Positions 4,991-21,165 of a stretch of 33,991 bases of DNA are shown piece by piece. The stretch's first letter is position 1. Each line of letters begins with the position of its first letter. Under the pieces are notes generated by a model. The model did no database searches. It saw only the letters and a program-made list of their open reading frames with translations, and was not told the DNA's origin. A program made the position numbers and the translations under genes. The DNA is from Clostridia bacterium (lineage in GTDB: Bacteria > Bacillota > Clostridia > Christensenellales > Aristaeellaceae): NCBI GenBank assembly GCA_030530315.1, contig JAUMVG010000037.1, positions 1 through 33,991 of the forward strand. Direction: 5' to 3'.

Positions 4991-6730
4991 ATGGACAAGC
5001 TGCTACAATTTCAAAAATGGCGCATCCGCACGCAGATCATGGCCTCCATGCAGGCCCTGATGGTCGTGCTGGCGATCAGCTGCTGCATCGCCTCCTACAG
5101 CGCGGCCAAGAGCAACATCGAGCGCAATTACACCGCCAACAGCGAAAAGGACCTCCAGATCGTGGAGGGCATCATCGAGATGAAGCTGGAGGACGCCGTG
5201 ACGCAGGTCCGCGAGGTCACGGTTTCGGACATGTTCCTGGATATCCTCGAGACGGAGAACCCCGACGGCGTCACATCCTTTGACAGCCTGAACAGCCACC
5301 GACTGGACGACATGTGGTCGATGATCGAGAACCAGAACGAATACGTGGGCGGCGTGTTTCTGTTCGATTTGAAGGGCCGCTTCTACAAGCGGCAGCGCGC
5401 CGGCAGGAACGCGAGCTGGTACGCGGGCTACTACGAGCCGGGGGCCCTCGAGGGCCTGCCCTGGCTGGACGAGGTCGCCGCCGCCCGGGGCAGGGCGGTG
5501 TTCTACGGCTACAACCTGCTGGCGCCTGAGGCGGACAGGAGCAGCATCACCTTTGCCCGCCAGCTGATCAGCCCCCGGGACTACCGGCCCGTGGGCTATC
5601 TGGTCGTCCAGCTGATGCCCAACCTGTTCCGCTCGTCCATGTTCACTAAAAGCGACTTCGAGAGCGAGACCTACGCAGTTTTCGACGCGGAGGACCGGCT
5701 GATCTTCGCCAACCGCGGCGCGGATTACGGAAGGGCGGTGCTGGAGGCCTATCGCCGGCAGGACCCGGGCTACCTGTTCGAGGCCATGCGCAGCGACCTG
5801 ACGGGCTTTACCACGCTGGTGAGCATCTCCCGCGCGGACCTGAACGGCATCAGCCGCTACATCCGGGTGATGACGCCGCTGATCATCGTGCTCTCGCTGC
5901 TGATCACCACGCTGCTGGCCCAGCTGCTCACCAGGCGGATCAACCGTCCGCTGGAGGTGCTCAAGCGCGCCGTCGAGGACATGAAGGACGGCGAACCCGT
6001 CGCGGCGGAGTTTGACGACGGCGAGATCGGCCAGGTCGGCCAGGCGCTGAAGCGCACCGTGGACAACAACCTGGAACTGCGCGAGCGCCTGATCGCGTCG
6101 CGGGTGAAGGAGCGCGAGGCGGAACTTCTGCTGCTCCAGTCCCAGATCAACCCGCACTTCCTGTACAACACGCTGGATTCCATCTATTGCAAGGCGCTGG
6201 TCCAGAACAACGACGAGGTCGCCGGCATGGTGCTGGCGCTGTCCAACCTGTTCAAGGCCGCGCTGAGCAACGGCGACACCGTCATCACCGTGCGCCAGGA
6301 GCTGGAGCACGTGGAGCGCTACATGGCCATACAGCGGCTGCGCTACGGCGACCGGTTCGAGATGATCCTGGACGTGGACGAGGAGCTGATGGACAAGCGC
6401 ATCATCAAGCTGATCCTGCAGCCCTTCGTGGAAAACAGCATGTACCACGGCCTGGAGCCCAAGCTGGGCGGCGGCTACATCGAGATCCGCGGCGAACTGC
6501 TGGAGGACGTGATCTACTTCCAGATCGAGGACAACGGCGTGGGCATGGAGGACCCGGAGGACATCTACCGGGGCTACGGCGTGACCAACGTGGTGGACCG
6601 CATCCACCTGTTCTACGGCGAGGAGTACGGCATCTCGGTGCAGAGTGTGGCGGGCCAGAAGACGGTCATTGAGATCCGCGTGCCCGTGATCGATGGGGAA
6701 GCTCAGAGTGGGGAGGAGGCAGAGGCGTGA
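4991..6730 (+). CDS. YesM-type sensor histidine kinase
   Basis: 579 residues. Membrane segments at about 14-36 and 290-312 flank an extracytoplasmic sensing region of about 250 residues. A HAMP-like segment follows (about 313-365). The His_kinase domain carries the phospho-acceptor His389 in QINPHFLYNTL, and the ATPase domain shows the N-box PFVENSMYHG (Asn482) and DNGVGM (from Asp514). This is the LytS/YesM class that in Firmicutes senses glycans or binding-protein-bound sugars and acts with AraC-type regulators. The stop overlaps the regulator start by 4 bp (GTGA), so the two are coupled. Confidence 0.93.
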   Translation: MDKLLQFQKWRIRTQIMASMQALMVVLAISCCIASYSAAKSNIERNYTANSEKDLQIVEGIIEMKLEDAVTQVREVTVSDMFLDILETENPDGVTSFDSLNSHRLDDMWSMIENQNEYVGGVFLFDLKGRFYKRQRAGRNASWYAGYYEPGALEGLPWLDEVAAARGRAVFYGYNLLAPEADRSSITFARQLISPRDYRPVGYLVVQLMPNLFRSSMFTKSDFESETYAVFDAEDRLIFANRGADYGRAVLEAYRRQDPGYLFEAMRSDLTGFTTLVSISRADLNGISRYIRVMTPLIIVLSLLITTLLAQLLTRRINRPLEVLKRAVEDMKDGEPVAAEFDDGEIGQVGQALKRTVDNNLELRERLIASRVKEREAELLLLQSQINPHFLYNTLDSIYCKALVQNNDEVAGMVLALSNLFKAALSNGDTVITVRQELEHVERYMAIQRLRYGDRFEMILDVDEELMDKRIIKLILQPFVENSMYHGLEPKLGGGYIEIRGELLEDVIYFQIEDNGVGMEDPEDIYRGYGVTNVVDRIHLFYGEEYGISVQSVAGQKTVIEIRVPVIDGEAQSGEEAEA

Positions 6731-7482
6731 AATCGATAGTCATCATCGACGACGAGAGCGTGGTGGTGGAGGCCATCGGGGCGATGGTCCGGCGCGCGGG
6801 GCTGGATTACCAAATCACCGGCACCGCCACCGACGGCGTGGACGGCCTGCGCGTCGTGATGGACACGCGGCCCGACGTGGTCATCACCGATATCCGCATG
6901 CCTGGCATCGACGGCCTGTCCCTGATCGAGCGCACCATCGAGGAGCTGCCGATGAGCGTGTTCATCGTCATCAGCGGCTATCGGGAATTCGAGTACGCCC
7001 AGAAGGCGCTGAAGCTGGGCGTGATGGACTTCATCGAAAAGCCCATCGACACCCAGAGCGTCGTCACCGCCCTCATCCGGGCGGAAGAGGTGCTGGACCT
7101 GCGCCGAAAGGTGCACAGGGTGCGGCATGTGGACGCCGTCCGGCAGCAGGAGCGCACCGACGCCCAGAACAGCGCGGTGGGGGAGGTGCTGCGCTACATC
7201 CACGCCAACTATGCCCAGGACCTGGGGCTGGACGAGCTCTCCAAGCTGGTGGACATGACCCCGGCCTACCTGTCCGACCTGTTCAAGCGCAACACCGGCA
7301 CCAGCTACGTCAAGTACCTGACCGCGGTGCGCATGAACAACGCCTGCCGGATGCTGCTGCAGGGCGAGCGCGCCTCGACGGTGGCGGAGAAGGTGGGCTA
7401 TCGCGACTACAACTACTTCTGCAAGGTCTTCAAGAAGAACGTGGGCGTGACGCCCAGCGAATATCGGGATGGGAAAACGTAA
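6727..7482 (+). CDS. YesN-type response regulator with AraC HTH domain
   Basis: 251 residues starting at a GTG (6727) that overlaps the kinase stop; GGGGAGGAGG lies just upstream. The receiver domain has the acidic pair D8-D9, phospho-acceptor Asp55 in VITDIRMPG and Lys105 in EKPID. The C-terminal part (about 150-247) is an AraC/XylS double HTH ending YRDYNYFCKVFKKNVGVTPSEYR. The linker is short (about 30 residues), so the protein is half the length of classical YesN. Expected to activate the binding-protein promoter just downstream, where tandem 20-bp repeats occur. Confidence 0.93.
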   Translation: MKSIVIIDDESVVVEAIGAMVRRAGLDYQITGTATDGVDGLRVVMDTRPDVVITDIRMPGIDGLSLIERTIEELPMSVFIVISGYREFEYAQKALKLGVMDFIEKPIDTQSVVTALIRAEEVLDLRRKVHRVRHVDAVRQQERTDAQNSAVGEVLRYIHANYAQDLGLDELSKLVDMTPAYLSDLFKRNTGTSYVKYLTAVRMNNACRMLLQGERASTVAEKVGYRDYNYFCKVFKKNVGVTPSEYRDGKT

Positions 7483-7594: not shown

Positions 7595-8863
7595 ATGACA
7601 CGCAAGGTATTGGCACTGGTGCTGGCTTTGACGCTGGCGATCGGCATGGTCGCCATGGCGCAGGCCAAGACGATCTCCTTCCTCTCCATCTGGGCGGAGG
7701 ACTACGACAACGGCAAGCTGCTGACCGACCTGTCCGCGAAGTACAAGGAGGAGCACCCGGACTTCGACTTCGAGCTGGAGCTGGTTTCCTCGGACAACCT
7801 GCAGCAGAAGGTGGCCACGCTGGCCGTCTCCAACGACCTGCCGGACGTGTTCGCCTATGAATCCGGCACGCCGCTGAAGACCATGATCGAGAACGACTAC
7901 GTCCTGAATGTGTCCGAGGCGCTGCGTGAGCTGGGCGTCGAAGACTACATCGACGCGGGCGCCTACAGCTTCCTGACCAACCTGGTTGGCACCGAGGACC
8001 TGTACGACCTGCCCCTGGGCCTGAACATCGAGAGCTTCTGGTACAACAAGGCGCTGTTCGAGCAGGCCGGCATCGAAGCCGCTCCCACCACCTGGGACGA
8101 GATGCTCGAGGACTGCGAGAAGCTGATGGCCGCGGGCATCCAGCCCTTCGCCGTGGGCGGCGCGGACCAGTGGCCCGCCACCCGCATCATCAACGCCTAT
8201 GTGATGCGCAAGCTGGGCGTGGACGCCATGAACAAGATGGCGGCCGGCGAGCTGTCCTACACCGACCCCGGCATGATCGAGGCCGCCCAGATGCTGCAGG
8301 ATATGTGCAACAAGGGCTACTTCGGCGTCGGCCCCACCACCGTTGACCAGAACACCGCCGCGCAGATGATCCTGGCCGGTGAAGCCGCCATCATCTACAA
8401 CGGCAGCTGGTACACCCAGGACCTGGTGGCGCCCACCAACCCCGCGGGCGAGGACGGCATCGGCTTCTTCAACATCCCCACCGTGGAAGGCGGCCCCGGC
8501 ACCCTGACCGAGTACTCCATGAACTGCGGCACCATCCTGTGCCTGAGCAAGGACAAGTATGACGAGGAGACCGCCGACTGGCTGAAGTACATCGTCACCA
8601 ACCTGGGCGACTATGCCATGTCCGAGTTTGGCGCCCTGAAGGGCTACGTCATCAACGAGTATCCCGAGACCATGAGCAAGTACTCCATCCTCGTCGCCGA
8701 GGAGATGGGCAAGGTCACCGGCACCAGCACCTGGTTCGAGGCGGCCATGAGCAGCGAGCTGTCCAACATCGCTCAGGTCAACGTCCAGAGCCTGATGAAC
8801 GGCGAGATGACCGCCGAGGAGTATGCCCAGTCCATGCAGGATGTCTGGGATGCCAACAACTGA
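7595..8863 (+). CDS. Carbohydrate ABC transporter substrate-binding protein
   Basis: 422 residues of the extracellular sugar-binding (family 1, MalE/MsmE-like) type. The signal peptide (1-24) ends in AQA-K, a type I cleavage site; there is no lipobox cysteine, unusual for a monoderm binding protein. The mature part shows the family segments LPDVFAYESG, NIESFWYNKALFEQAGI and TTWDEMLEDCEKL, and aromatic residues (for example NGSWYTQ) of the kind that stack on sugars. GGGAGG (7581-7586) precedes the ATG. A strong terminator after it should give a surplus of this protein over the permeases. The ligand is unknown. Confidence 0.93.
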   Translation: MTRKVLALVLALTLAIGMVAMAQAKTISFLSIWAEDYDNGKLLTDLSAKYKEEHPDFDFELELVSSDNLQQKVATLAVSNDLPDVFAYESGTPLKTMIENDYVLNVSEALRELGVEDYIDAGAYSFLTNLVGTEDLYDLPLGLNIESFWYNKALFEQAGIEAAPTTWDEMLEDCEKLMAAGIQPFAVGGADQWPATRIINAYVMRKLGVDAMNKMAAGELSYTDPGMIEAAQMLQDMCNKGYFGVGPTTVDQNTAAQMILAGEAAIIYNGSWYTQDLVAPTNPAGEDGIGFFNIPTVEGGPGTLTEYSMNCGTILCLSKDKYDEETADWLKYIVTNLGDYAMSEFGALKGYVINEYPETMSKYSILVAEEMGKVTGTSTWFEAAMSSELSNIAQVNVQSLMNGEMTAEEYAQSMQDVWDANN

Positions 8864-8974: not shown

Positions 8975-9040
8975 TCGGCGACATCCGAAGGATGGCGCTG
9001 ACAATCATTCTCCAAAGCGTCATGAAACGAGGTGTACCCC

Positions 9041-9928
9041 ATGAATCAGGTCTTGCGGGATAAGAAGGCGATTGCCGCGTTTGTGGTGCCGGGCCTCATT
9101 CTCTACACGCTGCTCGTCATACTGCCCATCGTATGGTCGGGCTATTATTCGTTTTTCGACGGCACCGCGGGCATGAAGAACTGGGCCTTCGCGGGGCTGA
9201 AAAACTACGGGAAGCTGTTCAAGGACAAGAACTTCCTGAATTCCCTGAGCGTCAACATGCGCTATGTGCTGATGGTCACCGCCGGCCAGGTCTTTTTCGG
9301 CCTGCTGATGGCGCTGATCTTCAAGTTCTGGGTCAAGAAATTCGGCGCCCTGGTGCGCACAATCGTGTTTTTTCCGGTCGTGCTGCCGACGGTTGCGGTG
9401 GCACAGCTGTTTGCCAAGATATATGAGATCCAGCCCCACTACGGCCTGCTCAATTCATTGCTCGCCGGCCTCGGGCTCGAAAGCTGGGTGCAGCCCTGGA
9501 TCGGCAAGTCGTCGACGGCGCTGGGCGCGCTGGCTGCGATGGACATCTGGGTGGCCATCGGCTTCTACTCCGTCATCATCTACGGCGCGCTGCTGGACAT
9601 CTCCAGCGAGATCATCGAGGCCGCGCAGATCGACGGCTGCAGCGCCTTTCAGCTGTTCCGGCACATCCTCGCGCCGCTGCTGCGGCCGATACTGGTCACC
9701 TGCGTGATCTTCAGCTTCACCGGAACCGTGAAGATGTTCGAATCCGCCCTGGCCCTCACCGGCGGCGGTCCCGGCACGGCCACGCGCTCGCTGTCCATGT
9801 ACATGTACGACACGGCCTTTACCTACATGAAGACGGGCTACGGCAGCACCATCGCGCTGGTCATATTCCTGATCTGCGTGGTGGGCTCCCGCATCATCCG
9901 GTTCTTCGACTGGGACTACAGGAAGTGA
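9041..9928 (+). CDS. Sugar ABC transporter permease (MsmF/UgpA type)
   Basis: 295 residues with six predicted membrane helices. The EAA loop that contacts the ATPase is EAAQIDGCSAFQLFRHILAP, at about residues 195-214. The ATG at 9041 follows GAGGTG at 7 bp; the in-frame GTG at 9032 lies within that site. It pairs with the second permease 10 bp downstream. No ATPase gene is present, so a shared MsmX-like ATPase is expected elsewhere, as is common for family 1 sugar importers in Firmicutes. Confidence 0.93.
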   Translation: MNQVLRDKKAIAAFVVPGLILYTLLVILPIVWSGYYSFFDGTAGMKNWAFAGLKNYGKLFKDKNFLNSLSVNMRYVLMVTAGQVFFGLLMALIFKFWVKKFGALVRTIVFFPVVLPTVAVAQLFAKIYEIQPHYGLLNSLLAGLGLESWVQPWIGKSSTALGALAAMDIWVAIGFYSVIIYGALLDISSEIIEAAQIDGCSAFQLFRHILAPLLRPILVTCVIFSFTGTVKMFESALALTGGGPGTATRSLSMYMYDTAFTYMKTGYGSTIALVIFLICVVGSRIIRFFDWDYRK

Positions 9929-9938
9929 GGTGGCAGGC

Positions 9939-10781
9939 ATGTCGAGCAAAAACACGCAAAAGCTGGCCGAGGTGCTGAAGACAGCATTGATCGTTGTGAT
10001 CGTGCTGGTGTTCCTCTACCCGCTGTTTTGGATGATCACCGCCTCCTTCAAGCAGCCCACGGAGTTCGTGTCCAAGCCCGCTTACGCGCTGAACAGCGGC
10101 TTCTTCGTCCAGAACTACGTGGACGCCTGGACGCGCGGCCACATGAGCGTCTACTTCGTCAACAGCCTCATCAACACGCTGCTCTCCCTGGTGCTGATCG
10201 TCATCTTCTCGGTGACCATCTCCTTCGCGCTGACAAAGATGCAGTGGAAGCTGAAGGACTTCATGTCTGCCTACTTCGGCTTCGGCATCATGGTGCCCGT
10301 GGCCACGACGCTGATCCCGCTGGCGCAGATCTTCCAGAAGACCGGCCTGTACAACACCCGCACCGGCCTGGTGCTGGTGTACACCGCCTCCGCCATCTCC
10401 TTCAGCGTGTACCTGATCACCGGCTACCTGCGGGCGCTGCCGGACGAGATCATCGAGGCGGGCATCGTGGATGGCTGCAGCATCTACCGGCTGATGATCT
10501 CCATCGTGATTCCGCTGATGAAGAACGCCATCATCACCGTGCTGGTCATACAGTTCTTCTTCAAGTGGAACGACTTGATCTACTCCATGACCTTCGCCAG
10601 CAAGTCCTCCCTGAAGACCATGCAGACGGGCCTGCTGTACTTTGAAAACGAGTTCGGCTCCAAGAACTGGGGCGCGATATTCGCCTCGGTGTCCATCAGC
10701 GTGATGCCCATGCTGTTCATGTACCTCGCGCTGAACAAGGCCGTCATCGAGGGCATGACCGCCGGAGCGGTGAAAGGATGA
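9939..10781 (+). CDS. Sugar ABC transporter permease (MsmG/UgpE type)
   Basis: 280 residues with six membrane helices; the first follows a short cytoplasmic N-terminus. The EAA loop reads EAGIVDGCSIYRLMISIVIP. It ends EGMTAGAVKG, a typical C-terminus of this subfamily. GAGGTGG before the ATG at 9939 favours this start over the GTG at 9930. The stop overlaps the glycosidase start, indicating that import and hydrolysis are coupled. Confidence 0.93.
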   Translation: MSSKNTQKLAEVLKTALIVVIVLVFLYPLFWMITASFKQPTEFVSKPAYALNSGFFVQNYVDAWTRGHMSVYFVNSLINTLLSLVLIVIFSVTISFALTKMQWKLKDFMSAYFGFGIMVPVATTLIPLAQIFQKTGLYNTRTGLVLVYTASAISFSVYLITGYLRALPDEIIEAGIVDGCSIYRLMISIVIPLMKNAIITVLVIQFFFKWNDLIYSMTFASKSSLKTMQTGLLYFENEFGSKNWGAIFASVSISVMPMLFMYLALNKAVIEGMTAGAVKG

Positions 10782-12025
10782 TGAGTATGCGATTTGACGC
10801 GGAACGCGGCGCGATCGAGCGCTATGTGTTGGAAAACGTGGACAAGGTGCTGAAGCAGCCGCGCAGCTTCATACACCATCCCTTCATCGATCCCGGCTCC
10901 GTCTACGACGGCAACGTGTGGGACTGGGACACCTACTGGTCGGTCTACGGCCTGTTGGGCATTGCGGATATCCTGCCGAGGGAGACCCTTGAGAAGGTCG
11001 TGACACACGCCAGGGGCAATGTGCTGAACTTCCTCGACCACCAGCTGGAGGACGGCTACATCCCCATGATGATCGAGGTGGCCAACTGGCCCGAGCCCTA
11101 CCTGAACATGATGCGCAAGCGGGGCGTGCGCATGAACATGCACAAGCCCTTCCTCTGCGGCCAGATCGCCCTGATCAGCCGCTTCACCGGCGACTGGAGC
11201 TGGGCGGCGGGCTTTGCGGAGCAGCTGGAAAAGTACTTTGCGTGCTACGACCGGGAGTATTTCAACGACAACTGCGGCCTGTACGTGTGGATCGACGACA
11301 TCATGATCGGCGGCGACAACGACCCCGCCACCTTTGGGCGGCCCAAGTTTTCCACCGCGAACATCTACCTGAACAGCTTCATGGTGGAGGAGCTGGCCCG
11401 CATGGCGGAATACCTGACCGCCACCGGGCGGCAGGACCGCGCGGCCCACTACCTGGAGAAGCGGGATCGGCTGATCGAGGCCATCCAGGCGGAATGCTGG
11501 GACAGGCGGGACCAGTTCTTCTACTCCGTGGACGTGGATGTCAAGACCCGCAAGTTCGACTGGTTCCACCAGGGCCTGGGCGTGTTCTGGAAGACGCTGC
11601 CCATCAAGATCCGCGTGTGGTCCGGCTTCATTCCCATGTGGGCCGGGTTCGCCACGCAGGAGCAGGCGGCGGCGCTGGCGCGGCACATGTTCGACCCCGC
11701 CACCTTTGCCTCGGACTACGGCATCTGCACCATGGCGAAGGATGAGAAGATGTTCGACCTGTCCGCCACCAACAACCCCTCCAACTGGCTGGGTCCCATC
11801 TGGCTGGTGGCCAACTACGTGGCCTTCAAGGGCCTGATGAACTACGGCTATCGGGGCGAGGCGGAACAGCTCTGCGCCCGGTCCGCGCGTCTGCTGGCCG
11901 ACGATCTGGCAAACACCGGCTGTCTGCACGAGTACTACGATCCCTTTACCGGCAAACCCGTGATGAACGGCGGTTTTATCAACTGGAACATACTGGTGCT
12001 GAACATGATCCGGGAACTGGAATAG
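10778..12025 (+). CDS. GH63/MGH1-like glycoside hydrolase, trehalase-type barrel
   Basis: 415 residues without a signal peptide, so it acts on imported substrate. The sequence fits a compact (alpha/alpha)6 barrel of the GH63 / mannosylglycerate-hydrolase-like group: WDWDTYW (48-54), WIDDIMIGGDND (171-182) with the probable general acid Asp180, NPSNWLGPIW (333-342), and HEYYDPFTG (384-392) with the probable general base Glu385. GH63-like enzymes of this size include mannosyl- or glucosyl-glycerate hydrolases. The start is ambiguous: ATG 10778 overlaps the permease stop, while ATG 10787 has the better spacing from AAAGG. Residue numbers use 10778. Exact substrate unknown. Confidence 0.82.
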   Translation: MMSMRFDAERGAIERYVLENVDKVLKQPRSFIHHPFIDPGSVYDGNVWDWDTYWSVYGLLGIADILPRETLEKVVTHARGNVLNFLDHQLEDGYIPMMIEVANWPEPYLNMMRKRGVRMNMHKPFLCGQIALISRFTGDWSWAAGFAEQLEKYFACYDREYFNDNCGLYVWIDDIMIGGDNDPATFGRPKFSTANIYLNSFMVEELARMAEYLTATGRQDRAAHYLEKRDRLIEAIQAECWDRRDQFFYSVDVDVKTRKFDWFHQGLGVFWKTLPIKIRVWSGFIPMWAGFATQEQAAALARHMFDPATFASDYGICTMAKDEKMFDLSATNNPSNWLGPIWLVANYVAFKGLMNYGYRGEAEQLCARSARLLADDLANTGCLHEYYDPFTGKPVMNGGFINWNILVLNMIRELE

Positions 12026-12109: not shown

Positions 12110-13471
12110 ATGGATTTTTCGAAGCTGCCGCTGAGCGCGCTGCTTTCAAGGGACGGCTTTGAATGCGGCTGCGGCAGGCGGCACCGCACGGACCTGCGCT
12201 GGCTGAAGATCGGCAGGAACGCCGTAGAGGCGCTGCCGGAGATGCTCAGCGCCATCGGCGGCAGGCGGCCCATGGTCGTCTGCGATTTGAACACCTGGGA
12301 CGCGGCGGGGGAAAGGGCCTGCGCGATTCTGGACGGCGACGGGATCGAGTACCGGCTCTGCCGCTTCGATACCCGGGAGCGGCTGATGCCCGCCGAATGG
12401 GAGCTGGGCAGCATCGCCATGCGCTTCGATCCCGCCTGCGACTGCATACTGGCCGTGGGCGGCGGGGTCATCAACGACCTGTGCAAGCTGATGGGCAAGG
12501 CGGCGGGCGTGCCCACGGCCATCGTGGCCACCGCGCCCTCCATGGACGGCTTCGCATCCAACTCCGGGGCGATGGAGGTCGGCGGCGTCAAGAAGACGAT
12601 CTACACGCCCTGCCCCGCTGGGGTGCTGTGCGACACGGAGATCATGGCCGCCGCGCCGGAGCGGATGCTGCTGGCGGGGGTGGGGGACATGATCGCCAAG
12701 TATGTCTCCATCTGCGACTGGCGGATCAGCCATGTGGTGAACGGCGAATACTACTGCGAGGGCGTGGCGGGCATGATGCGCGGCGCGCTGGCGCGGGTCA
12801 CGGACAGCCTGGAGGGCATCGCGGCCCGGGACCCGGAGGCGATCGGGACCGTGGCCGAGGGCCTTGTGCTGGCCGGCGTCGCCATGTCCTTCGCCCGGGT
12901 CTCCCGCCCGGCCTCGGGGCTGGAGCACTGCTTCTCCCACATCTGGGAGATGATGGCCCTGGAGCGGGGCCGTCCCTACGACCTGCACGGCATACAGGTG
13001 GGCGTGGGGACAATGCTGGCGCTGCCCGTCTATCGGTGGATGAGGACGCTGCGCCCGGACATGGCCCGGGTGGAGGCGGTAATATCGGCCTTCGACGGGG
13101 AGGCCTGGGAAGCGAACCTGCGCCGGGTGTTTGGCCGGACCGCGGAGCCGCTGATCGCCCAGGAGCGCGACCAGCGCAAGAACGACCCGGAGGGCCGCAG
13201 GCGGCGGGCGGCGCGGATCATCGAGCACTGGGAGGAATTGGCTCAGATCATGGACGAGGAGTTGCCGGACGCCGACGCGCTGCGCGGGCGGATGCAGGCC
13301 CTGGGGCTGCCCATGCGGCCCGGGGACATCGGCATATCGGATGAGGACGCCCTGGACGCCTTCGTCTGCTCCCGGGACATCCGGGACCGATACCTGTCCA
13401 CGTCGATGCTCTGGGACATCGGCTGGCTGGACGAGGGCACAGAGGTGATGAAGGAGGTGCTGGAGGCGTGA
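12110..13471 (+). CDS. egsA: sn-glycerol-1-phosphate dehydrogenase family protein (AraM/EgsA)
   Basis: 453 residues of the iron-containing-alcohol-dehydrogenase fold. Visible features are FECGCGRRH near the N-terminus as in AraM proteins, a nucleotide-binding GGGVINDLCK (117-126), APSMDGFASN (142-151), and the metal ligands Asp193 in GVGD, His273 in LEHCFSH and His293 in LHGIQVG. Characterised B. subtilis AraM interconverts dihydroxyacetone phosphate and sn-glycerol 1-phosphate with a nicotinamide cofactor. GAGGAGG precedes the ATG. The stop overlaps the kinase start by 4 bp. AraM homologues often sit in sugar operons, so a related polyol phosphate is also possible. Confidence 0.85.
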   Translation: MDFSKLPLSALLSRDGFECGCGRRHRTDLRWLKIGRNAVEALPEMLSAIGGRRPMVVCDLNTWDAAGERACAILDGDGIEYRLCRFDTRERLMPAEWELGSIAMRFDPACDCILAVGGGVINDLCKLMGKAAGVPTAIVATAPSMDGFASNSGAMEVGGVKKTIYTPCPAGVLCDTEIMAAAPERMLLAGVGDMIAKYVSICDWRISHVVNGEYYCEGVAGMMRGALARVTDSLEGIAARDPEAIGTVAEGLVLAGVAMSFARVSRPASGLEHCFSHIWEMMALERGRPYDLHGIQVGVGTMLALPVYRWMRTLRPDMARVEAVISAFDGEAWEANLRRVFGRTAEPLIAQERDQRKNDPEGRRRRAARIIEHWEELAQIMDEELPDADALRGRMQALGLPMRPGDIGISDEDALDAFVCSRDIRDRYLSTSMLWDIGWLDEGTEVMKEVLEA

Positions 13472-14922
13472 AGTACATCGTTGCGGTGGACCAGTCCACC
13501 TCCGCCAGCAAGGCGTTTCTGGTGGATGAACAGGGCGGGATCGTCCGCAGGGCCTCCCGGCCGCACCGCCAGTTTTATCCCGCCCCGGGGCGCGTGGAAC
13601 AGGACGCGGGGGAGATCTTTCACAATGTGGAAGCCATCATCGCCGAGGTGACCGAGGGCATTCCCACGGACCAGCTGGCCGCTCTGGCGCTGACCAACCA
13701 GCGGGAGACCACGGTGCTCTGGGACCGCCGGACGGGGGAGCCTGCCTGCCCCGCGGTGGTGTGGCAGGATACCCGGGGTGAACCCCTTTGCGAAGAACTG
13801 ATACGCCACGACGCCCGGGTGCGGGATCTGACGGGCAGCGCGCTGTCGCCCTATCTGCCTGCCTCGAAGATCGGCGTCCTGCTGCGGGAGAACCCGGCGC
13901 TGCGCAGGCGGGCGGAGGCGGGGGAGCTGTGCATGGGCACGATGGAGAGCTGGCTCGCCTTCAAGCTTGGCGGGCGGCATGTGACGGACGCCTCCAACGC
14001 CAGCCGCACCCAGCTGATGGACATCCACCGGCTCGAATGGTCGAAGGAGCTGACGTCCCTGTTCGGCATCCCGGAGGGCCTGCTCGCAGAGGTTTTGCCT
14101 TGCGACGGGGACTTCGGCAGCTATTGCGGCATGCCCATCGTGGGCGTGCTGGGGGACAGCTTCGGCACGCTGTTCGGCCAGGGCTGCCACGCGCCGGGCA
14201 CGGCGAAGATCAGCTACGGCACGGGTACCTCGGTGATGGTGAACCTCGGCGAGCACGCGCTGATCCCGGAGAACGGGCTGACCACCGCCGTCGCGTGGCG
14301 CTTTGGCGGGCGGACGGCCTACGAGCTGGAGGGGAACATCACCTGCTCGGGGGACACGCTCATCTGGCTGTGCGAGGGCTTGGAGCTGTTTCGGGATCCC
14401 CAGGAGATCGAGGAATTGGCCAGGACCGTGCCGGACGCGCTGGGCGTACAGCTGGTGCCCGCCATGGCGGGACTCGGCGCGCCCTTCTTCGACACCGGCG
14501 CGACGGCGTTGATCCGGGGCATGACCCGGGGAGCGACCCGGGCCCACGTGGCCAGGGCGGCGCTGGAGGCGATGGCCCAGCGGCCCGCGGACGTGCTGGA
14601 GGCGATTCGCGCCGGAAGCGGCCTTGAGGTGCCCCTCCTGATGGCGGACGGCGGCGGCTGCAAAAACACGCTGCTGATGCAGTTCCAGGCGGACCTCGCG
14701 GACTGCGAATTGCAGTGCGCCAGGTTCAGCGAGCTCTCGGCCCTGGGCGCGGCCTGGATGGCCGGCATCGCCGTGGGCCTGTTCAACTCCCTGGAGGACA
14801 TTCCCGCGCGCCAGGGCGAGGGGGCGCGCTACGCGCCGCGCATGGCGGTGGAGCAGCGCAAGGCGATGCGCGAGGCGTGGCGGCTGGCGATCCAGTGCGC
14901 CAGGATGCGGCAGGAGGACTGA
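13468..14922 (+). CDS. FGGY-family carbohydrate kinase, glycerol-kinase-like
   Basis: 484 residues, GTG start overlapping the dehydrogenase stop. The segment TNQRETTVLWDRRTGEPAC and the DGG-NxxLMQFQAD region near the C-terminus are those of glycerol kinases. Glycerol-contacting residues of GlpK are retained (Arg79, Glu80, Tyr129, Asp230), but the Gln after that Asp is Ser231 and the loop reads GDSFGTLFGQ instead of GDQQAALFGQ. It is also somewhat shorter than GlpK (about 500). It therefore probably phosphorylates glycerol or a close polyol. Coupling to an EgsA-type enzyme suggests its product is that enzyme's substrate, which is inference. Confidence 0.85.
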   Translation: MKYIVAVDQSTSASKAFLVDEQGGIVRRASRPHRQFYPAPGRVEQDAGEIFHNVEAIIAEVTEGIPTDQLAALALTNQRETTVLWDRRTGEPACPAVVWQDTRGEPLCEELIRHDARVRDLTGSALSPYLPASKIGVLLRENPALRRRAEAGELCMGTMESWLAFKLGGRHVTDASNASRTQLMDIHRLEWSKELTSLFGIPEGLLAEVLPCDGDFGSYCGMPIVGVLGDSFGTLFGQGCHAPGTAKISYGTGTSVMVNLGEHALIPENGLTTAVAWRFGGRTAYELEGNITCSGDTLIWLCEGLELFRDPQEIEELARTVPDALGVQLVPAMAGLGAPFFDTGATALIRGMTRGATRAHVARAALEAMAQRPADVLEAIRAGSGLEVPLLMADGGGCKNTLLMQFQADLADCELQCARFSELSALGAAWMAGIAVGLFNSLEDIPARQGEGARYAPRMAVEQRKAMREAWRLAIQCARMRQED

Positions 14923-15093: not shown

Positions 15094-15906
15094 TCACCTT
15101 TGCGCTCTCGGCGGGATCCCCATGATCTCGCGGACCTCGTCGGGCGCGGCGGTCTCCAGCCCCATGGCGTGGATCAGCTGGACCAGCCGTTCCACCACCT
15201 GCCAGTTGTGTTCGGCGTAAACGCCCGGCGCGAGCCAGGCGCTGTCCTCAAAGCCGATGCGCACGATGCTGGCGCCCATGGCCATGGCTCCGGCCAGGAA
15301 GTCCCAGTTGTCCCGGCCATAGTGGGTGACGCCCCAGCGGGCGTCGGCGGGTACGGCGCTGCGGAAGGCCTGCAGGCAGGTCATGTCCGGCTGCATTCCG
15401 CCCTTGTGGCCGAAGACCAGGTTGTAGAAGATGGGCCGACGGTAGGGCTGCGTGCCGGCGCTGCGCTCCACGTTGTAGATCATGCCGATGTCGAACACCT
15501 CGACCTCCGGGATGATGCCCCGCTCGTAGGAGCGCCGGGCGCAGTAGTCGATGTCCGCGTCGGTGTTGACGTACACCGCGCCGTTCAGGTTGGTGCTGCC
15601 GCCGTTCAGCGAGGAACTCTCCACCCTCGGATAGTCCAGCGGGCGGCATCGCTCCTCGATGGTCATGTCGGAGATGCCGCCGGTGGAGGCCTGGACCACC
15701 ACGTCCGTTCGGGCCAGTATGTCCTCGAAGGTGGCGACGAACTCCGTCGTGTCCGGGGTCAGCGCGCCGTCCGGGCGGCGGCAGTGCAGGTGGCACATGC
15801 CCGCGCCCAGCGCCACGCACTTTTCCACGTCTTCGGCCAGCGCGGCGCGGTCCACAGGCGTTCCGGCCTTCACCGGGGCCAGGGAAATGATGATCTTGCG
15901 AGCCAT
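15094..15906 (-). CDS. BKACE / DUF849 beta-keto acid cleavage enzyme
   Basis: 270 residues, TIM-barrel. The family condenses a beta-keto acid with acetyl-CoA to give acetoacetate and a new acyl-CoA, using zinc. Ligands seen are His39 and His41 in HLHCR and Glu220 in VRIGFEDS, with the catalytic-type Asp221 beside it. The N-terminal start MARKIIISLAPVKAGTP is family-typical. The residue after HxHxR, usually Asp, is Arg43. AAAGGA precedes the ATG at 15906. It is the last gene of the minus-strand operon, 63 bp after the DUF1537 kinase. The substrate is unknown; the kinase and racemase neighbours suggest a hydroxylated acid. Confidence 0.9.
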   Translation of the reverse strand: MARKIIISLAPVKAGTPVDRAALAEDVEKCVALGAGMCHLHCRRPDGALTPDTTEFVATFEDILARTDVVVQASTGGISDMTIEERCRPLDYPRVESSSLNGGSTNLNGAVYVNTDADIDYCARRSYERGIIPEVEVFDIGMIYNVERSAGTQPYRRPIFYNLVFGHKGGMQPDMTCLQAFRSAVPADARWGVTHYGRDNWDFLAGAMAMGASIVRIGFEDSAWLAPGVYAEHNWQVVERLVQLIHAMGLETAAPDEVREIMGIPPRAQR

Positions 15907-15969
15907 ATTTCAGATTCCTTTCGAAGGTTGTCCCGCGCGACGCGCGAGTATGAAGCCGGAAGGCGCGCT

Positions 15970-17418
15970 CTACGCCAGCCTTTCGACGATCTCCCGCAGC
16001 GTGTCCACGCCGCCCACGTTCCCGGGGAAGATGACGTAGGCCATGCCGGGGAATCGGCTCTCGGGCCCGATGCGCCAGACGGGCACGCCGGGGGCGGCCT
16101 GGCCCAGCACCGTGGCGCGCACCACGCCCAGGGCCTGGGTGCCCACGTCGCTGGAGGTGATGCCGCCCTTGGCGATCAGGAAGCGGGGCCGGACAGAGAG
16201 GGACGATACCACCGCCGTGAGGGCGCCGGAGATGCGCGTGGAGATTGCCAGCTGGGCCTCGGCGTCCATCCCCTCGGGGGACGCGACCGCCCGGGAGGTG
16301 TAGACCACGGCGGTGACTCCCCGCTGCATCGCGGCATCCGCGGCGGCGGTCGCGCGGCGCGTCTCCGCCTCCAGCGCGCCGGCCTCGCGCCAGCCGGTTA
16401 CGTCGAATTCGATGAACTCCAGCGGCGCGTCGCTTGCGCGCAGGCATTTCAGCTGGTCGGTGGTCTTTTGAACGTGGGAGCCCACGATCACAAGCCCGCC
16501 CTTGGAGGGATCGCCTTCGGAGAGCTCCTTTCGGGTCAGCAGCGGCCGGTCCGATATGTGCCCCAGCGCCTTCGGCACCGCGGCGGCAGTCCGCAGCAGG
16601 TAGCGGCGGCCCTTGTGGGCCAGCCGGGCCAGCAGTACCGCCAGCACCCGCACGTCGTCCGCCCCCATGGCGTCGGCGGCGATATATGCATAATCCTCCC
16701 GCGCCAGCAGGCGTCGCTCCATGTCGTCGAATTCCAGGCCCCGCAGCTGGCTCAGCCGAAGGACCTCCACCCGGTCCGCCGGAATGGCGCCGCCGGACTT
16801 CTCTGAGATGTAGTCGGGTAAATATGAGTGCCGGTAGCCGAAGGTGCGGTCCTTCGCGAATTCCGTCTGGGCCGCGGGAACCAGCATATCGCCCTCGCGC
16901 ACGTAGTGCACGCCGTCCAGCGTGAAGCGCCCGCCCTCGGCGAAGAAGGGACACAGGATCTCGCCGCTCAGCGCCATGGACGGCGTCAGCGCGTCCCGCA
17001 GCGCCTGGGTCTCCAGGGGATAGTGCCCCCGAAGCGTGGAATCGCCCCGGGAGATCACGGTCAGGCTGCGTCCGGCCGTGGCAGCGGCCCGCAGGGCGTT
17101 TTCCGCGATCTCCCTGTGGACCCGCGCCGTCTTTTCCGTGGAAAAGCTGCGGGAGTTCGTCAGCACAAAGAACATCCCCGCGCTGCCTTTCATCATGCCG
17201 GTCAGCGTCGACGCGTCCCAGCGGGTCACCACGTCCACGTCATGCACGGTCTGCACGCCGGTGGGATCGTCGTCCAGCACCATGATGACCGACTGGGGAT
17301 CGGGCGCTTCCGCCTCGTACAGGGCGCGAAGCGCGTCCTTTGCGCCTTCCCGCCAAAGGCCTTCACAGGCCGCGAAGGCTTGCGCCGCGTCCAGCGGCTT
17401 CAGGTTTCGCTCGTCCAT
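15970..17418 (-). CDS. DUF1537 four-carbon acid-sugar kinase
   Basis: 482 residues. Members phosphorylate D-threonate, D-erythronate or 2-/3-oxo-tetronates. Seen are the N-terminal substrate domain with LDDDPTGVQTVHD (48-60) and SRGDSTLRGH (123-132), and the C-terminal nucleotide domain with AKGGITSSDVG (416-426) and FPGNVGG (464-470). The length is near the family norm with about 40 extra N-terminal residues. GGAGG in the last codons of the upstream GH127 gene serves as ribosome site, so the two are coupled. The usual partners (class II aldolase OtnC, PdxA2) are absent and a BKACE follows instead. Confidence 0.9.
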   Translation of the reverse strand: MDERNLKPLDAAQAFAACEGLWREGAKDALRALYEAEAPDPQSVIMVLDDDPTGVQTVHDVDVVTRWDASTLTGMMKGSAGMFFVLTNSRSFSTEKTARVHREIAENALRAAATAGRSLTVISRGDSTLRGHYPLETQALRDALTPSMALSGEILCPFFAEGGRFTLDGVHYVREGDMLVPAAQTEFAKDRTFGYRHSYLPDYISEKSGGAIPADRVEVLRLSQLRGLEFDDMERRLLAREDYAYIAADAMGADDVRVLAVLLARLAHKGRRYLLRTAAAVPKALGHISDRPLLTRKELSEGDPSKGGLVIVGSHVQKTTDQLKCLRASDAPLEFIEFDVTGWREAGALEAETRRATAAADAAMQRGVTAVVYTSRAVASPEGMDAEAQLAISTRISGALTAVVSSLSVRPRFLIAKGGITSSDVGTQALGVVRATVLGQAAPGVPVWRIGPESRFPGMAYVIFPGNVGGVDTLREIVERLA

Positions 17419-17424
17419 CTGGGT

Positions 17425-19368
17425 TCAGCTCCTCCATGCCAGGGGCAGCCATACGCTCATCTCGCCCCAGCCCCGGTTGTCCCAGGCGTAGTAGGGGATT
17501 ATTCGCGCCGTCACTGGCTTCAGCGTCGGCGCGCCCATGGGCCTGTACAGCGCCTCCTGGGCCGCCTCGTCCACCGGCTGCCACAGCAGGCCGACTTCAT
17601 AGGCGTGGACGTTCCGGCCGTCGATCTCCTCCGGCACGGGCGTGAATTCCGCGTTCACGGGCAGCAGCACGTCAGGCAGCCGCACGCCCTCGGGCAGGCC
17701 GGCGCTCTCCAGGCAGTACACCAGCGGGCCGATTTCCACGCAGGCCTGGTTCCGGGCTTCCTCGATCAGGTCGTGCCCCACGGTCAGCCGGGGCAAAAAG
17801 GGCAGGCCCAGTTCACAGCAGAAGCCTTTGGGTGTGTCGACCCTCACGGTGTGGTAACCGGGTTCCAGCGGCACATCCACGCCGGAGAGCCGTGCGCCGC
17901 CTGCCCAGTGCGGCACCCTCAGGCGAAGCTCAAAGGGCACACCGTTGCTTTCACTGACGGTGAAGGTCACGCGCCCGTCGAAGGGATAGTCGGTGGCCTG
18001 GGTCAGCGTGAACGCCGCGCCGTTCTTCAAGTGGAAGCGGGCGGTGTTTGCCCCGTAGAGGCCCGTCCACACGCCGCCTTCGTCCACCGCGTAGGCGTAT
18101 TCCGACGTCTGGGAGAGCGTCCGGGCCAGGTTCGGCGGGCAGCAGTAGCTGGTGATGTATTCGGTGCGGCTCTGCCCCCACAGCAGCTCGTAGGACAGCT
18201 TTCCCGCCCGGCGCAGCATGTTCTCGTAGAAGAACTTCCTGCCGTCCAGGCTGACGCCCGCCATGTTCACGTTCAGCAGCATCCGCTCCAGCACGTCCAT
18301 GACGTTGGCCCTCGGCGCCATCAGGAACATGCGCCAGGCCCAGAACACGCCGCCCAGGGAGGCACAGGTTTCGTTGTAGGCGGTGACGTTGGGCAGCTGG
18401 TATTCGTAGCCATAGGCCTGGTGTACCAGCTGGTGATGGAAGAAATTGCCGTAGGGCGACGCGCCGTTGTACAGCGCCCCGCAGCCGCCGGTGATGTACA
18501 GCTTCTGGGTGACCAGGTGGTTCCACACGCTCTCCAGCACGGCGCGGTAATCCCCGTCGCCCTCCTCCATGTACAGGTCGGCCAGGCCGGCGTACAGATA
18601 GTTCGCCCGCACGGCGTGGCCCACGATCTTCCGGTGCCGCTTCAGCGGCAGGCGGTCCTGGTTGTCGTCCAGGCCGTCCTTCACGGAGTCCCGAAGCTGC
18701 ACTGCCAGCCGCGCGAGGGCCAGGTACTCCGGCTTTCCGGTGGTGCGATACAGCTCCACCAGGCCCATGTAGTGGCTGGGACACACGGCGGTCTTGACCT
18801 CGCCGGTGCGGGCCGCTTCCTCATACATGTTCTTGAGATAGCCCGCCGCGCCCTCGGCCACCCGCAGGAAGCTGTCCCTTCCGGTCAGGCGGTAGTAGAG
18901 ACAGGCCGAGGTGAACATGTGGCCCATGTTGTAGACCTCGAAGTCGTTGATATCCCCCTGGCGCATGGGGCCCTTGCCCTGCCTTTCGCCGATGATCTGC
19001 TTGGTGGACAGGTAGCCGTCGGGCTGCTGGGCCCGGGCGAACAGGGCGACATAGGCCTCCAGCCGGTCGAGCAGCGCCGCGTTGCCGGTCCTGACGGCGG
19101 TGTAGACCGCGGCCTCGAACCACTTGTAGAAATCTCCGTCGCCGAACACAGTGCCGGCAAAGTCGCCCTCGGCCTCGCCGGCGGCGATGCGGAAGTTCTC
19201 CACCACGTGGCTGACGTCCTTATCCTCGAACATGCGCTGCAGGTGGGGAACGGTGACAGCGGCGACGGTGTCGAAGCGCTCCTTGTACAGGCCGCCCGTC
19301 CATTCCACGTCCCGATAGGGGACCGAAGCCGCCCGGGCGAAGGGCGAGCGGGAGGTATCGGCGATCAT
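17425..19368 (-). CDS. GH127 (DUF1680) beta-L-arabinofuranosidase family protein
   Basis: 647 residues: an N-terminal (alpha/alpha)6 barrel, then beta-sandwich domains. The zinc-site residues of characterised HypBA1 are present: Glu333 and Cys335 in YNETC, and Cys409-Cys410 in SYCCPPN, where the first is the nucleophile. The position of HypBA1's acid/base Glu, 16 residues before the zinc Glu, is Gln317 in VHQAYG. No signal peptide, so it acts on imported oligosaccharide. ATG 19368 overlaps the racemase stop by 4 bp. Family assignment is firm; beta-L-arabinofuranoside specificity is uncertain because of the Gln. Confidence 0.9.
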   Translation of the reverse strand: MIADTSRSPFARAASVPYRDVEWTGGLYKERFDTVAAVTVPHLQRMFEDKDVSHVVENFRIAAGEAEGDFAGTVFGDGDFYKWFEAAVYTAVRTGNAALLDRLEAYVALFARAQQPDGYLSTKQIIGERQGKGPMRQGDINDFEVYNMGHMFTSACLYYRLTGRDSFLRVAEGAAGYLKNMYEEAARTGEVKTAVCPSHYMGLVELYRTTGKPEYLALARLAVQLRDSVKDGLDDNQDRLPLKRHRKIVGHAVRANYLYAGLADLYMEEGDGDYRAVLESVWNHLVTQKLYITGGCGALYNGASPYGNFFHHQLVHQAYGYEYQLPNVTAYNETCASLGGVFWAWRMFLMAPRANVMDVLERMLLNVNMAGVSLDGRKFFYENMLRRAGKLSYELLWGQSRTEYITSYCCPPNLARTLSQTSEYAYAVDEGGVWTGLYGANTARFHLKNGAAFTLTQATDYPFDGRVTFTVSESNGVPFELRLRVPHWAGGARLSGVDVPLEPGYHTVRVDTPKGFCCELGLPFLPRLTVGHDLIEEARNQACVEIGPLVYCLESAGLPEGVRLPDVLLPVNAEFTPVPEEIDGRNVHAYEVGLLWQPVDEAAQEALYRPMGAPTLKPVTARIIPYYAWDNRGWGEMSVWLPLAWRS

Positions 19369-20036
19369 AGCGCAAAACCCTTTCCGCGCAGCGCGTCCCT
19401 CAGGGCGGCGGCGCCGAAGCGCGGGCTGGACAGGGTGGGCCTGCCCACGGCGGCTTCGATGTCCCGCTCCACGTAGGCCATGCTGCCCTGGGCCAGCACG
19501 ATGACGTCCACGTCATCCGCGAGGCTGCGGGCCGCGTCGATCAGCAGGGCGCGGAAGCGGTCCTGGTCCGCGCCGAAGGCGTCCACAAGGCCGTCCACCA
19601 ACTCGATGTGCCTGCCCATCTCCCGGGCGACGCGGCGAAGGGTGTTCTTCGTGGGCTCCAGCGTGGTGGGCAGCGTCGCCAGCACGCCGATCCGCCCGCC
19701 GAGGCGCGCGGCCTCCCGGCACATCTCCTCGTCGATGCGCACCACGGGCACGCCGATGTACTTCGCCGCGCTCTGGAAGGCGTCGGCGATCTCGCCCGCG
19801 GAGGAGCAGATGTTCAGTATGGCGTCCGCGCCCTGGGCCACGGCATCGCAGTACATGCCCATCAGCCGGGCCGCGGCGGTGGGGGTCACATAGCCCGCGT
19901 CCCGGATCTCGGCCAGCAGGCTGGGGTCCTTCAGGCTGAAGAGTTCAGCGCTTGGGACGAGGGCCTTGCGCACCTCGGTCTCCAGGGTTTCGATCAGTTC
20001 CGGGGTAAAGCTGGTGTAGACGAGCGCAACTTTCAT
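19365..20036 (-). CDS. Asp/Glu/hydantoin racemase-family protein
   Basis: 223 residues. The N-terminal half has Cys77 in NICSSAGEIAD, the first catalytic Cys position of this fold. The second half position, usually Cys in a G-C-x-G-M setting, reads LAQGSM (181-186), so only one catalytic Cys remains. Such proteins may be racemases, isomerases or decarboxylase-like. The start at 20036 (MKVALVYTSF) fits homologues; GGTGA is its weak ribosome site. An in-frame ATG at 20048 is possible, and the frame continues upstream without support. It is the first gene of the operon. Confidence 0.78.
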   Translation of the reverse strand: MKVALVYTSFTPELIETLETEVRKALVPSAELFSLKDPSLLAEIRDAGYVTPTAAARLMGMYCDAVAQGADAILNICSSAGEIADAFQSAAKYIGVPVVRIDEEMCREAARLGGRIGVLATLPTTLEPTKNTLRRVAREMGRHIELVDGLVDAFGADQDRFRALLIDAARSLADDVDVIVLAQGSMAYVERDIEAAVGRPTLSSPRFGAAALRDALRGKGFAL

Positions 20037-20470: not shown

Positions 20471-21040
20471 TCACATCCGCACCTGTCTCAGCATTTCAAG
20501 AAGAAACCTGGCGATCTCCCTGGGCGTGCGGTCCTTATGCTCCAGCCAGGTGTGTACGGTATCGATGAATCCGGCCGCGAAGAAGTTGATCCGGTATTCC
20601 ATGTTCTCCTGATTGCGGTATCCCACGGTTTCTATATTGCGGCGGGAAGTGGCGGCGATGGATTCCTTCATCTTCTGGTAGAAGTAGATGTCGCCTGCCG
20701 ATGAAAGCAGGAATCGGCACAGCTTTTCGTTCTTCATGTGGTATTCCATATCCGCCGTGAGCTCATCCAGATAAGCGGCCATCTGCTCCGCGGAGGCCTC
20801 CGGGTGGAAGCTGTGGATGGCGGAGGTCAGGCCGCGGGTCGTCTCCAAGTATTCATGCTCGATCTCACGCAGCACGTCGTCCTTCGTATCAAAGTAGCGA
20901 TAGAAGGTACTGCGGTAGGCGTGGGCCCGGTTGCAGATGTCCCATATCGTGATGTCATAATAGCTCTTCTCATCACACAGCTCAATCAAGGCGTTTTTCA
21001 GCGTGGCGCGGGTGCGGTCGCGCTTTTCCTGGTTAATCAC
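20471..21040 (-). CDS. TetR-family transcriptional regulator
   Basis: 189 residues. Residues 8-55 form the TetR HTH (segment TIWDICNRAHAYRSTFYRYF). The rest is an all-helical ligand domain that I cannot assign further. The start is the GTG at 21040 (MINQEKRDRTR): AGGAGG lies 7 bp before it, and translation further upstream has no site. Divergent from the MBL-fold operon, with a 15-bp palindrome between, so it probably represses that operon and itself. Confidence 0.88.
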   Translation of the reverse strand: MINQEKRDRTRATLKNALIELCDEKSYYDITIWDICNRAHAYRSTFYRYFDTKDDVLREIEHEYLETTRGLTSAIHSFHPEASAEQMAAYLDELTADMEYHMKNEKLCRFLLSSAGDIYFYQKMKESIAATSRRNIETVGYRNQENMEYRINFFAAGFIDTVHTWLEHKDRTPREIARFLLEMLRQVRM

Positions 21041-21165
21041 CCCAACACCTCCTGTTGACGGCAGACCGCCTTGCCAGGCGCCGCAGCTGCGCGCCCGCAC
21101 AGCCAATGTGCGGGGCAATAGTCGGCCTTACAGCCTCCCTTAAAATGAGACAAAATAGAACATTA

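Follow-up and report, generated by a model that had tools for sequence, protein, structure and literature searches.

Which compound is broken down by an operon that joins a GH127 glycoside hydrolase, a DUF1537 family kinase, a protein of the Asp/Glu racemase superfamily (RACE) and a β-keto acid cleavage enzyme (BKACE)? Such an operon lies on the minus strand at 15094-20036 of the 33,991-nucleotide stretch analysed here (the window), contig JAUMVG010000037.1 of a Clostridia bacterium (GCA_030530315.1). The source is a draft assembly of 144 contigs, 94.19% complete and 6.11% contaminated, in which the window is contig C123. An earlier note, made from the letters of the window, had recognized this combination of families, and domain scores confirmed all four at that place. 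The genes form one tight run in the order RACE, GH127, DUF1537 kinase, BKACE; since the first two genes overlap by 4 bp and the following gaps are of 6 bp and 63 bp, they are likely co-transcribed as a single transcript. A promoter-like site upstream of RACE (20266-20238, minus strand; 0.4 expected) and terminator-like sites (1 versus 2.8 expected) carry no weight either way. We consider it likely that the GH127 protein releases aceric acid, so that the substrate would come from side chain B of rhamnogalacturonan II (RG-II), and we lean towards the view that RACE, the DUF1537 kinase and BKACE form a catabolic route for this sugar, whatever the exact steps.

The case for the substrate begins with GH127. 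Its only NCBIfam match is the aceric acid hydrolase model NF049879, at 717.7 bits, and among solved structures 5mqo is nearest at 529.7 bits, 226 bits ahead of the second (303.3). The record of that structure bears the name β-L-arabinofuranosidase; we take 5mqo to be BT1003. The two proteins have the CPSHYMG and DDNQDR stretches in common, and E333, C335, C409 and C410, presumably the Glu and the three Cys of the GH127 active site, are invariant in 10 aligned GH127 rows. When ten GH127 proteins were scanned, NF049879 was the sole match; six members of the window's group scored 612-779 bits and four ordinary ones 407-461, and by these scores the group is set apart from ordinary GH127s. Because 717.7 bits is below the NF049879 cut-off of 950, the protein is filed as aceric-acid-hydrolase-like and not as a member of that family. 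BT1003 of Bacteroides thetaiotaomicron is the GH127 aceric acid hydrolase of RG-II according to passages of PMC10850190 and PMC5698469; as a passage of the latter also places β-L-arabinofuranosidases and 3,6-anhydro-D-galactosidases in GH127, family membership alone does not settle the substrate. The acid sugar handled by the operon and the product of GH127 are probably the same molecule, because the GH127 subgroup is nearest to the aceric acid hydrolase and not to β-L-arabinofuranosidase, and the substrate is probably neither threonate nor arabinose. The earlier note had the acid sugar arriving as part of an arabinoside-like glycoside; arrival through GH127 is very likely, and the arabinoside was dropped as first choice, the nearest structure being 5mqo.

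The four genes stay together in other genomes, as the earlier note had asked to be checked. Genome contigs were scanned with four BKACE rows, and of the 276 loci found, the 80 most like the window's BKACE were retained, so that these 80 lean towards close kin; the nearest, a Clostridiales metagenome-assembled genome (RUG14645), has a BKACE of 97% identity. All four genes were found within the fetched flanks at 39 of the 80 loci, with the order of the window on one strand at 34, and carriers include Lachnospiraceae, Oscillospiraceae and Enterococcaceae. The other loci have RACE and BKACE (17), RACE, DUF1537 and BKACE (12), GH127, DUF1537 and BKACE (4), DUF1537 and BKACE (3), RACE, GH127 and BKACE (1) or BKACE alone (4), some of the incomplete sets being at contig ends. 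DUF1537 accompanies GH127 at 43 of 44 loci and RACE does so at 40; the full 10 kb flank is present on both sides at 25 of these 44 and is shorter on one or both sides at 19.

Co-occurrence was also counted in 150 related genomes, our own included, that had not been ranked by BKACE. With subgroups delimited at 607 bits or more for GH127 (next score 270) and at an E-value of 6.9e-58 or better for BKACE (in these 150 genomes), each subgroup was present in 6 genomes and both were present in 5. With our own genome removed, 149 related genomes shared 4 of 5 and 5 (hypergeometric 1.3e-6, uncorrected for kinship). Among 391 genomes of the class, our own included, each subgroup was present in 5 and both in 2.

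The neighbours of the set point to the same polysaccharide. Neighbour families were clustered across the flanks of the 80 loci and each was named by scanning one member. We found GH78 at 13 loci, GH106 at 6, apiosidase-like PF13204 at 9, GH29 at 9, GH42 at 8 and a SASA acetylesterase at 5, together with genes of the apiose type (isomerase at 9, aptA at 10 and aptB at 11, a set that also includes an FGGY kinase). At least one such neighbour was seen at 30 of the 44 GH127 loci, and GH127 or such a neighbour at 51 of the 58 DUF1537 loci. To our knowledge, aceric acid occurs nowhere but in RG-II. Side chain B is built from apiose, rhamnose, 2-O-methylfucose, arabinose, galactose and aceric acid, with acetyl groups on the methylfucose and the aceric acid, as passages of PMC8218411 and PMC11360243 have it, and aceric acid is the only acid among the sugars listed in the former. 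Rhamnosidases, a fucosidase, a β-galactosidase, apiosidase-like proteins, an acetylesterase and apiose genes thus fit side chain B, which argues for aceric acid as the substrate. In addition, genes of the TRAP type stand near BKACE at 11 loci (7 and 5 by family, L048 being in both; further examples are L062 and L102; one DctM and one DctP member were confirmed by scan). Such transporters beside RACE and BKACE fit a free acid as the substrate and suggest its uptake.

The link with apiose is close. The split transketolase is 33-48% identical to AptA/AptB of E. coli SE15 and the kinase 33-41% identical to AplK. At 10 of the 11 loci with the split transketolase all four genes are present; the apiose-type set lies directly upstream of the four-gene set at six (L024, L025, L027, L032, L040, L085) and one gene further off at two (L031, L053). 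Our own genome, which holds GH127, an MGH1-like protein, apiosidase-like proteins (two, on contigs C38 and C68) and an apiose set, carries on contig C2 a row of isomerase, aptA, aptB and kinase genes, the isomerase being 92% identical to the one at L025. Contig C38 (16000-35999; L162) also carries a second split transketolase, two SDR-like proteins, a transaldolase-like protein and a transporter that reads as tripartite tricarboxylate type, beside its apiosidase-like protein, several of these names being given by likeness or reading.

The earlier note called the fourth protein racemase-like; to read it as a racemase goes too far. RACE keeps the first Cys (C77), and in a profile alignment Q183 falls at the position of the second Cys in glutamate and allantoin racemases, which we take to be the second catalytic Cys of two-cysteine racemases. 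C77, Q183, S185 and M186 are invariant in 28 aligned rows (28 of 66; a second alignment held 25 of 66 rows plus the paralogue of contig C77). Because Gln183 takes the place of the second catalytic Cys, RACE is unlikely to be a two-base racemase, and it stands as a candidate isomerase or decarboxylase.

BKACE aligns with Kce (2y7d) at H39, H41, S74, E136, R216, E220 and D221, which by the roles known for Kce presumably form the zinc and catalytic set. In 80 rows (the window and 79 of the 80 loci, L073 having been lost from the clustered family in the choice of open reading frame) S74, E136, R216, E220 and D221 are identical throughout, and at positions 39 and 41 His is found in 77 rows and a gap in 3. 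The BKACE of G121, which has a stop in its stretch, was left out of a separate alignment (A1), and the tree was built from 78 rows without proteins shorter than 230 aa (L074, L075). H167 and S222 are the same in 80/80 rows and differ in 8/8 ordinary BKACEs from related genomes (L008-L015). As these two residues are invariant in the group and absent from the eight, the window's group is predicted to have an active site of its own.

The DUF1537 kinase, the only one found in the assembly, is below the NCBIfam cut-offs of the described kinases (DtnK 54.5 of 450 bits, OtnK 35.1 of 350, OiaK 27.0 of 700). A single-sequence search of solved structures gave none at 0.001, and a profile search gave only 1yzy (E 0.0087); its own alignment comprised 21 of 55 rows. 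In the passages available of PMC10971088 and PMC12540250, DUF1537 enzymes act on acids, namely tetronates and oxo-tetronates. The earlier note had listed OtnC and PdxA2 as partners of such kinases, leaving out a third type, the F_bP_aldolase 2-OtnC, that appears in a passage of PMC12540250. It had further held that both partners are absent and that BKACE takes their place. For the operon the first point stands: a domain scan found no OtnC, PdxA2, OtnI or threonate/erythronate dehydrogenase in it. For the genome it does not, as one PdxA homologue lies on contig C77. Its presence goes part of the way towards refuting the earlier idea, for which such a homologue serving the kinase from elsewhere in the genome had been named as a refutation; it has neighbours of its own, without DUF1537, and is unlikely to serve the window's kinase. 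Its contig (positions 1-20000; L140, L147) shows an operon-like run of LarA-like, phosphoglycerate kinase, glyceraldehyde-3-phosphate-dehydrogenase-like, RACE-like, SDR, TRAP-transporter-like, metallo-β-lactamase-fold and PdxA proteins that resembles yet another pathway for an acid sugar.

Four class II aldolase-domain proteins were found in the genome, none at the OtnC cut-off of 250 bits (contig C96 158 bits, C113 88, C129 51.8, C79 no match). The one on C96, a two-domain protein whose best NCBIfam match is OtnC, could supply a decarboxylase in trans. An OtnC query found matches at 4 of the 80 loci (L092, L095, L096, L099), none with GH127 and all among the seven loci from Pseudomonadota; the OtnK, OtnC and OtnI members taken from L096 and L099 for scanning all reach the respective cut-offs. 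That BKACE sits in the place expected for OtnC or PdxA2 holds for the operon; a simple replacement of OtnC is weakened, since both occur together at these four loci.

Starting from what was directly established, namely the gene families, the residue patterns and a conserved set linked to RG-II genes, we drew up a route from the chemistry of the sugar. Known acetyl-CoA chemistry of BKACEs requires the loss of a proton from the alpha carbon. Aceric acid is 3-C-carboxy-5-deoxy-L-xylose, as stated in a passage of PMC8218411. Its 2-ketose, HOOC-C(OH)(CHOH-CH3)-CO-CH2OH, is a β-keto acid that corresponds formally to an aldol addition of 3-oxo-tetronate to acetaldehyde. The ABC transporter of the window would import side chain B oligosaccharides, which glycosidases would trim until GH127 could free aceric acid. 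RACE may then convert the aldose to the 2-ketose and the DUF1537 kinase may phosphorylate its free CH2OH, after which BKACE would cleave a C-C bond by retro-aldol reaction, giving acetaldehyde and, through 3-oxo-tetronate 4-phosphate, dihydroxyacetone phosphate (DHAP) and CO2. The last decarboxylation might be spontaneous in this genome or provided in trans; alternatively, kinase and cleavage could act in the opposite order, or BKACE could decarboxylate instead. Because the alpha carbon of the ketose bears no hydrogen, retro-aldol cleavage or decarboxylation is preferred over cleavage with acetyl-CoA, which the earlier note had put forward and which we keep as a mere possibility. Such a route would explain why the operon has a DUF1537 kinase and no dehydrogenase, and why it includes BKACE, with a β-keto acid bound at zinc; it would also explain the OtnC found with RACE and BKACE at the four Pseudomonadota loci, as expected if the route ends in 3-oxo-tetronate. 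The substrate and every reaction are inferred, the step order from chemistry, and the exact reactions are offered tentatively and may well differ.

A different sequence of steps on the same substrate is possible and overlaps with this route: RACE would act on the ketose like an arylmalonate decarboxylase, the DUF1537 kinase would phosphorylate the resulting 5-deoxypentulose, and BKACE would be an aldolase that yields DHAP and acetaldehyde. The single catalytic Cys of RACE suits it, as does C3 of the ketose, a quaternary carbon adjoining a ketone, the arrangement required for decarboxylation, and RACE stays with GH127 in a variant with xylose-isomerase-like, transketolase and transaldolase-like proteins. 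On the other hand, arylmalonate decarboxylase retains the other Cys, not that of RACE, and the DUF1537 enzymes described act on acids (passages of PMC10971088 and PMC12540250). We hold this variant to be doubtful.

The substrate itself could be another. β-L-Arabinofuranose also terminates side chain B, and GH127 might be an ordinary β-L-arabinofuranosidase, an activity known in its family (PMC5698469, in part), while the other three enzymes would degrade another pectin acid arriving with the same oligosaccharides, for instance Dha, Kdo or a uronate derivative. The score below the NF049879 cut-off leaves room for this; the 226-bit lead of 5mqo speaks against it, as do neighbours that match side chain B, with aceric acid as its sole acid, and not chains C or D, and we find it unlikely. 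Less likely still is a linear tetronate-like acid sugar, phosphorylated by the DUF1537 kinase and cleaved as its 3-oxo acid by BKACE with acetyl-CoA while GH127 merely delivers the glycoside. It agrees with the tetronate and oxo-tetronate substrates of DUF1537 kinases (PMC10971088 and PMC12540250, in part), with the canonical catalytic residues of BKACE and with the OtnK, OtnC and OtnI homologues beside RACE and BKACE at L092, L095, L096 and L099, but conflicts with the operon's lack of a threonate or erythronate dehydrogenase, with the strong tie of the set to side chain B genes and with those same four loci, where OtnC and BKACE occur together.

Several observations weigh against the aceric acid route as we propose it. 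No GH127 scanned, that of the window included, reaches the NF049879 cut-off, and we found no GH106 match in our own genome. The residues that serve acetyl-CoA chemistry are retained in BKACE, so a new reaction would not be required. No sign of RG-II was seen in the flanks of 7 of the 58 DUF1537 loci, nor in those of the 19 loci that have neither DUF1537 nor GH127, some of both kinds being at contig ends. In the class-wide set without our own genome only 1 genome was shared of 4 and 4 (p 0.04, uncorrected for kinship), which is weak. Three of the seven RACE-BKACE loci of Pseudomonadota (L087-L089) show no OtnC, and at one of the 44 GH127 loci (L031) a class II aldolase that scores 116 bits with the OtnC model is encoded on the opposite strand, at a distance of about 4 kb. 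The contamination of the draft assembly, given above, is a further point, but a genome of the same genus has the same operon at 87-97% identity.

Gene content in some other genomes also weighs against the route. GH127 occurs without a BKACE match at E 1e-45 in G294, G337 and G464, all of one genus, and in G064 without a BKACE match at 0.001. In G464, G294 and G064, GH127 and RACE are paired with a split transketolase and a transaldolase-like protein, with no DUF1537 or BKACE in the fetched stretches; a xylose-isomerase-like protein is also there in G464 and G294. In G337 none of RACE, split transketolase, transaldolase-like protein, DUF1537 or BKACE lies within about 10 kb of GH127. Finally, a transaldolase-like protein accompanies RACE and BKACE without DUF1537 at L055-L057 and L081-L083 (the flanks of L056 are short), a combination that the roles proposed here leave unexplained.

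The arrangement of GH127 and RACE with a split transketolase and a transaldolase-like protein in place of DUF1537 and BKACE, as at L151, L152 and L145, is an alternative module. Because RACE stays with GH127 there, it seems to be common to two solutions. A further combination appears at L154 (736-5353) and L155 (3938-5428), where BKACE adjoins a lyxose-isomerase-like cupin (scanned at L154, by likeness at L155), L154 also having an FGGY kinase and DUF1537; a row in G419 of BKACE, lyxose-isomerase-like protein, FGGY kinase and DUF1537 looks like isomerase, kinase and cleavage.

Near BKACE at 10 of the 80 loci (L063, L077-L079, L081-L083, L090, L091, L094; for example L079:11146-12900), no GH127 being seen in the flanks of any of them, we observed a family of proteins of about 585 aa (fam15) with no Pfam match above cut-off in the one member scanned. 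Nine of its ten members were aligned, and E309-x-C311 and C407-C408 are invariant in these 9 rows. Compared with the GH127 profile it reaches 91.5% probability over 300 columns, and no solved structure matched at 0.1; it is perhaps a GH127-like stand-in hydrolase.

The operon belongs to a wider cluster whose plus-strand group, from the sensor kinase to the FGGY kinase, runs towards it (Table 1). At L066 and L073 a homologue of the sensor kinase forms one run with the transporter, an MGH1 gene and all four genes, and homologues of the solute-binding protein occur at 13 of the 80 BKACE loci, 10 of them with GH127. As for DctM and DctP, the names of sensor kinase, response regulator and ABC proteins were each checked by a domain scan of one member. 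The window's FGGY kinase is 36% identical to AplK of E. coli SE15 and 41% to the kinase of L025. It and the glycerol-1-phosphate-dehydrogenase-like gene (12110-14922 together) converge with the operon in the window; at L030 and L032 they lie on the same strand, downstream and upstream of it.

Table 1. Genes of the operon and of the wider cluster in the window
Feature	Position	Strand	Evidence and remarks
BKACE-family protein, 270 aa	15094..15906	-	PF05853 213.5 bits, gathering cut-off 24.8; candidate C-C cleaving enzyme for a β-keto acid
DUF1537 family kinase (SBD_N + NBD_C), 482 aa	15970..17418	-	PF07005 166.5 bits, PF17042 120.3 bits; candidate acid-sugar kinase
GH127 glycoside hydrolase, 647 aa, aceric-acid-hydrolase-like	17425..19368	-	PF07944 305.1 bits, profile 1-375 of 376
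Asp/Glu-racemase-superfamily protein (RACE), 223 aa	19365..20036	-	PF01177 76.3 bits, cut-off 31; candidate isomerase or decarboxylase
TetR-family candidate regulator, upstream of the operon	20471..21049	-	PF14278 + PF00440; regulatory role from position only
Sensor histidine kinase, wider cluster	4991..6730	+	PF06580 93.4 bits
AraC-type response regulator	6727..7482	+	PF00072 + PF12833; adjoins the sensor kinase in L144 too
ABC transporter solute-binding protein	7595..8863	+	PF01547 122.8 bits
ABC transporter permease	9032..9928	+	PF00528; 61-71% identical homologues in L040, L044, L046, L047, L066, L144
ABC transporter permease	9930..10781	+	PF00528; 59-69% identical homologues in L040, L044, L046, L047, L066, L144
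MGH1-like glycoside hydrolase	10778..12025	+	PF22422; homologues in 10/80 loci; adjoins GH127 in L144
Glycerol-1-phosphate dehydrogenase-like (Fe-ADH_2) protein, loosely linked	12110..13471	+	homologue directly downstream of BKACE in 3/80 loci (L028, L030, L032)
FGGY kinase, kin of glycerol kinase and apiose-pathway kinase	13468..14922	+	TIGR01311 467.1 bits, below cut-off 590.35

Few plant polysaccharides in food are as complex as RG-II, and the hydrolase that frees aceric acid is already known. In the titles, beginnings of abstracts and passages of the open-access literature that were available, no catabolic route for the freed sugar was found described; a review of hexuronates names aceric acid, in its accessible part, only among the sugars of RG-II, and no paper among the matches listed has both DUF1537 and BKACE as words. 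The window offers a small conserved gene set and a concrete proposed route for this rare branched acid sugar, and it suggests that gut Clostridia, and not Bacteroides alone, use side chain B. We put forward, as a speculative proposal, a new aceric acid route in gut Clostridia in which a one-Cys RACE would be a sugar-acid aldose-ketose isomerase and BKACE an acetyl-CoA-free retro-aldolase acting on a branched phosphorylated β-keto acid, with a parallel solution elsewhere made of RACE, split transketolase and transaldolase-like protein. If true, this would be new chemistry for two large enzyme families.

Each part of the operon resembles a known system and departs from it. The window's GH127 is of the same family as BT1003, its nearest solved relative if 5mqo is indeed that protein, and has the two stretches named above in common with it; it differs by scoring below the NF049879 cut-off and by its setting in Clostridia, in an ABC transporter cluster with RACE, DUF1537 and BKACE. 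The pathways for L-threonate (LtnD-OtnI-OtnK-OtnC) and D-erythronate (DtnK-PdxA2) likewise use a DUF1537 kinase, and 3-oxo-tetronate 4-phosphate may be a shared intermediate, whereas the operon is without dehydrogenase, OtnI and OtnC, has BKACE and RACE, and encodes a kinase far below the OtnK, DtnK and OiaK cut-offs. The D-apionate pathway has a DUF1537 kinase for a branched β-keto acid, the 3-oxo-isoapionate kinase OiaK; the aceric ketose would differ from 3-oxo-isoapionate in having CH(OH)CH3 for CH2OH, and the window's kinase gives 27 bits to the OiaK model, whose cut-off is 700. With Kce and the DUF849-family BKACEs the window's group shares the zinc and catalytic residues, and it is distinguished from the eight ordinary ones compared by the invariant His167 and Ser222 and by an extra residue before the VRIGFED motif. 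Homologues of the D-apiose pathway (ApsI, AptA, AptB, AplK), finally, are found near BKACE at up to 11 of the 80 loci and on our own contig C2; they represent a partner module for another sugar of side chain B and not the same route.

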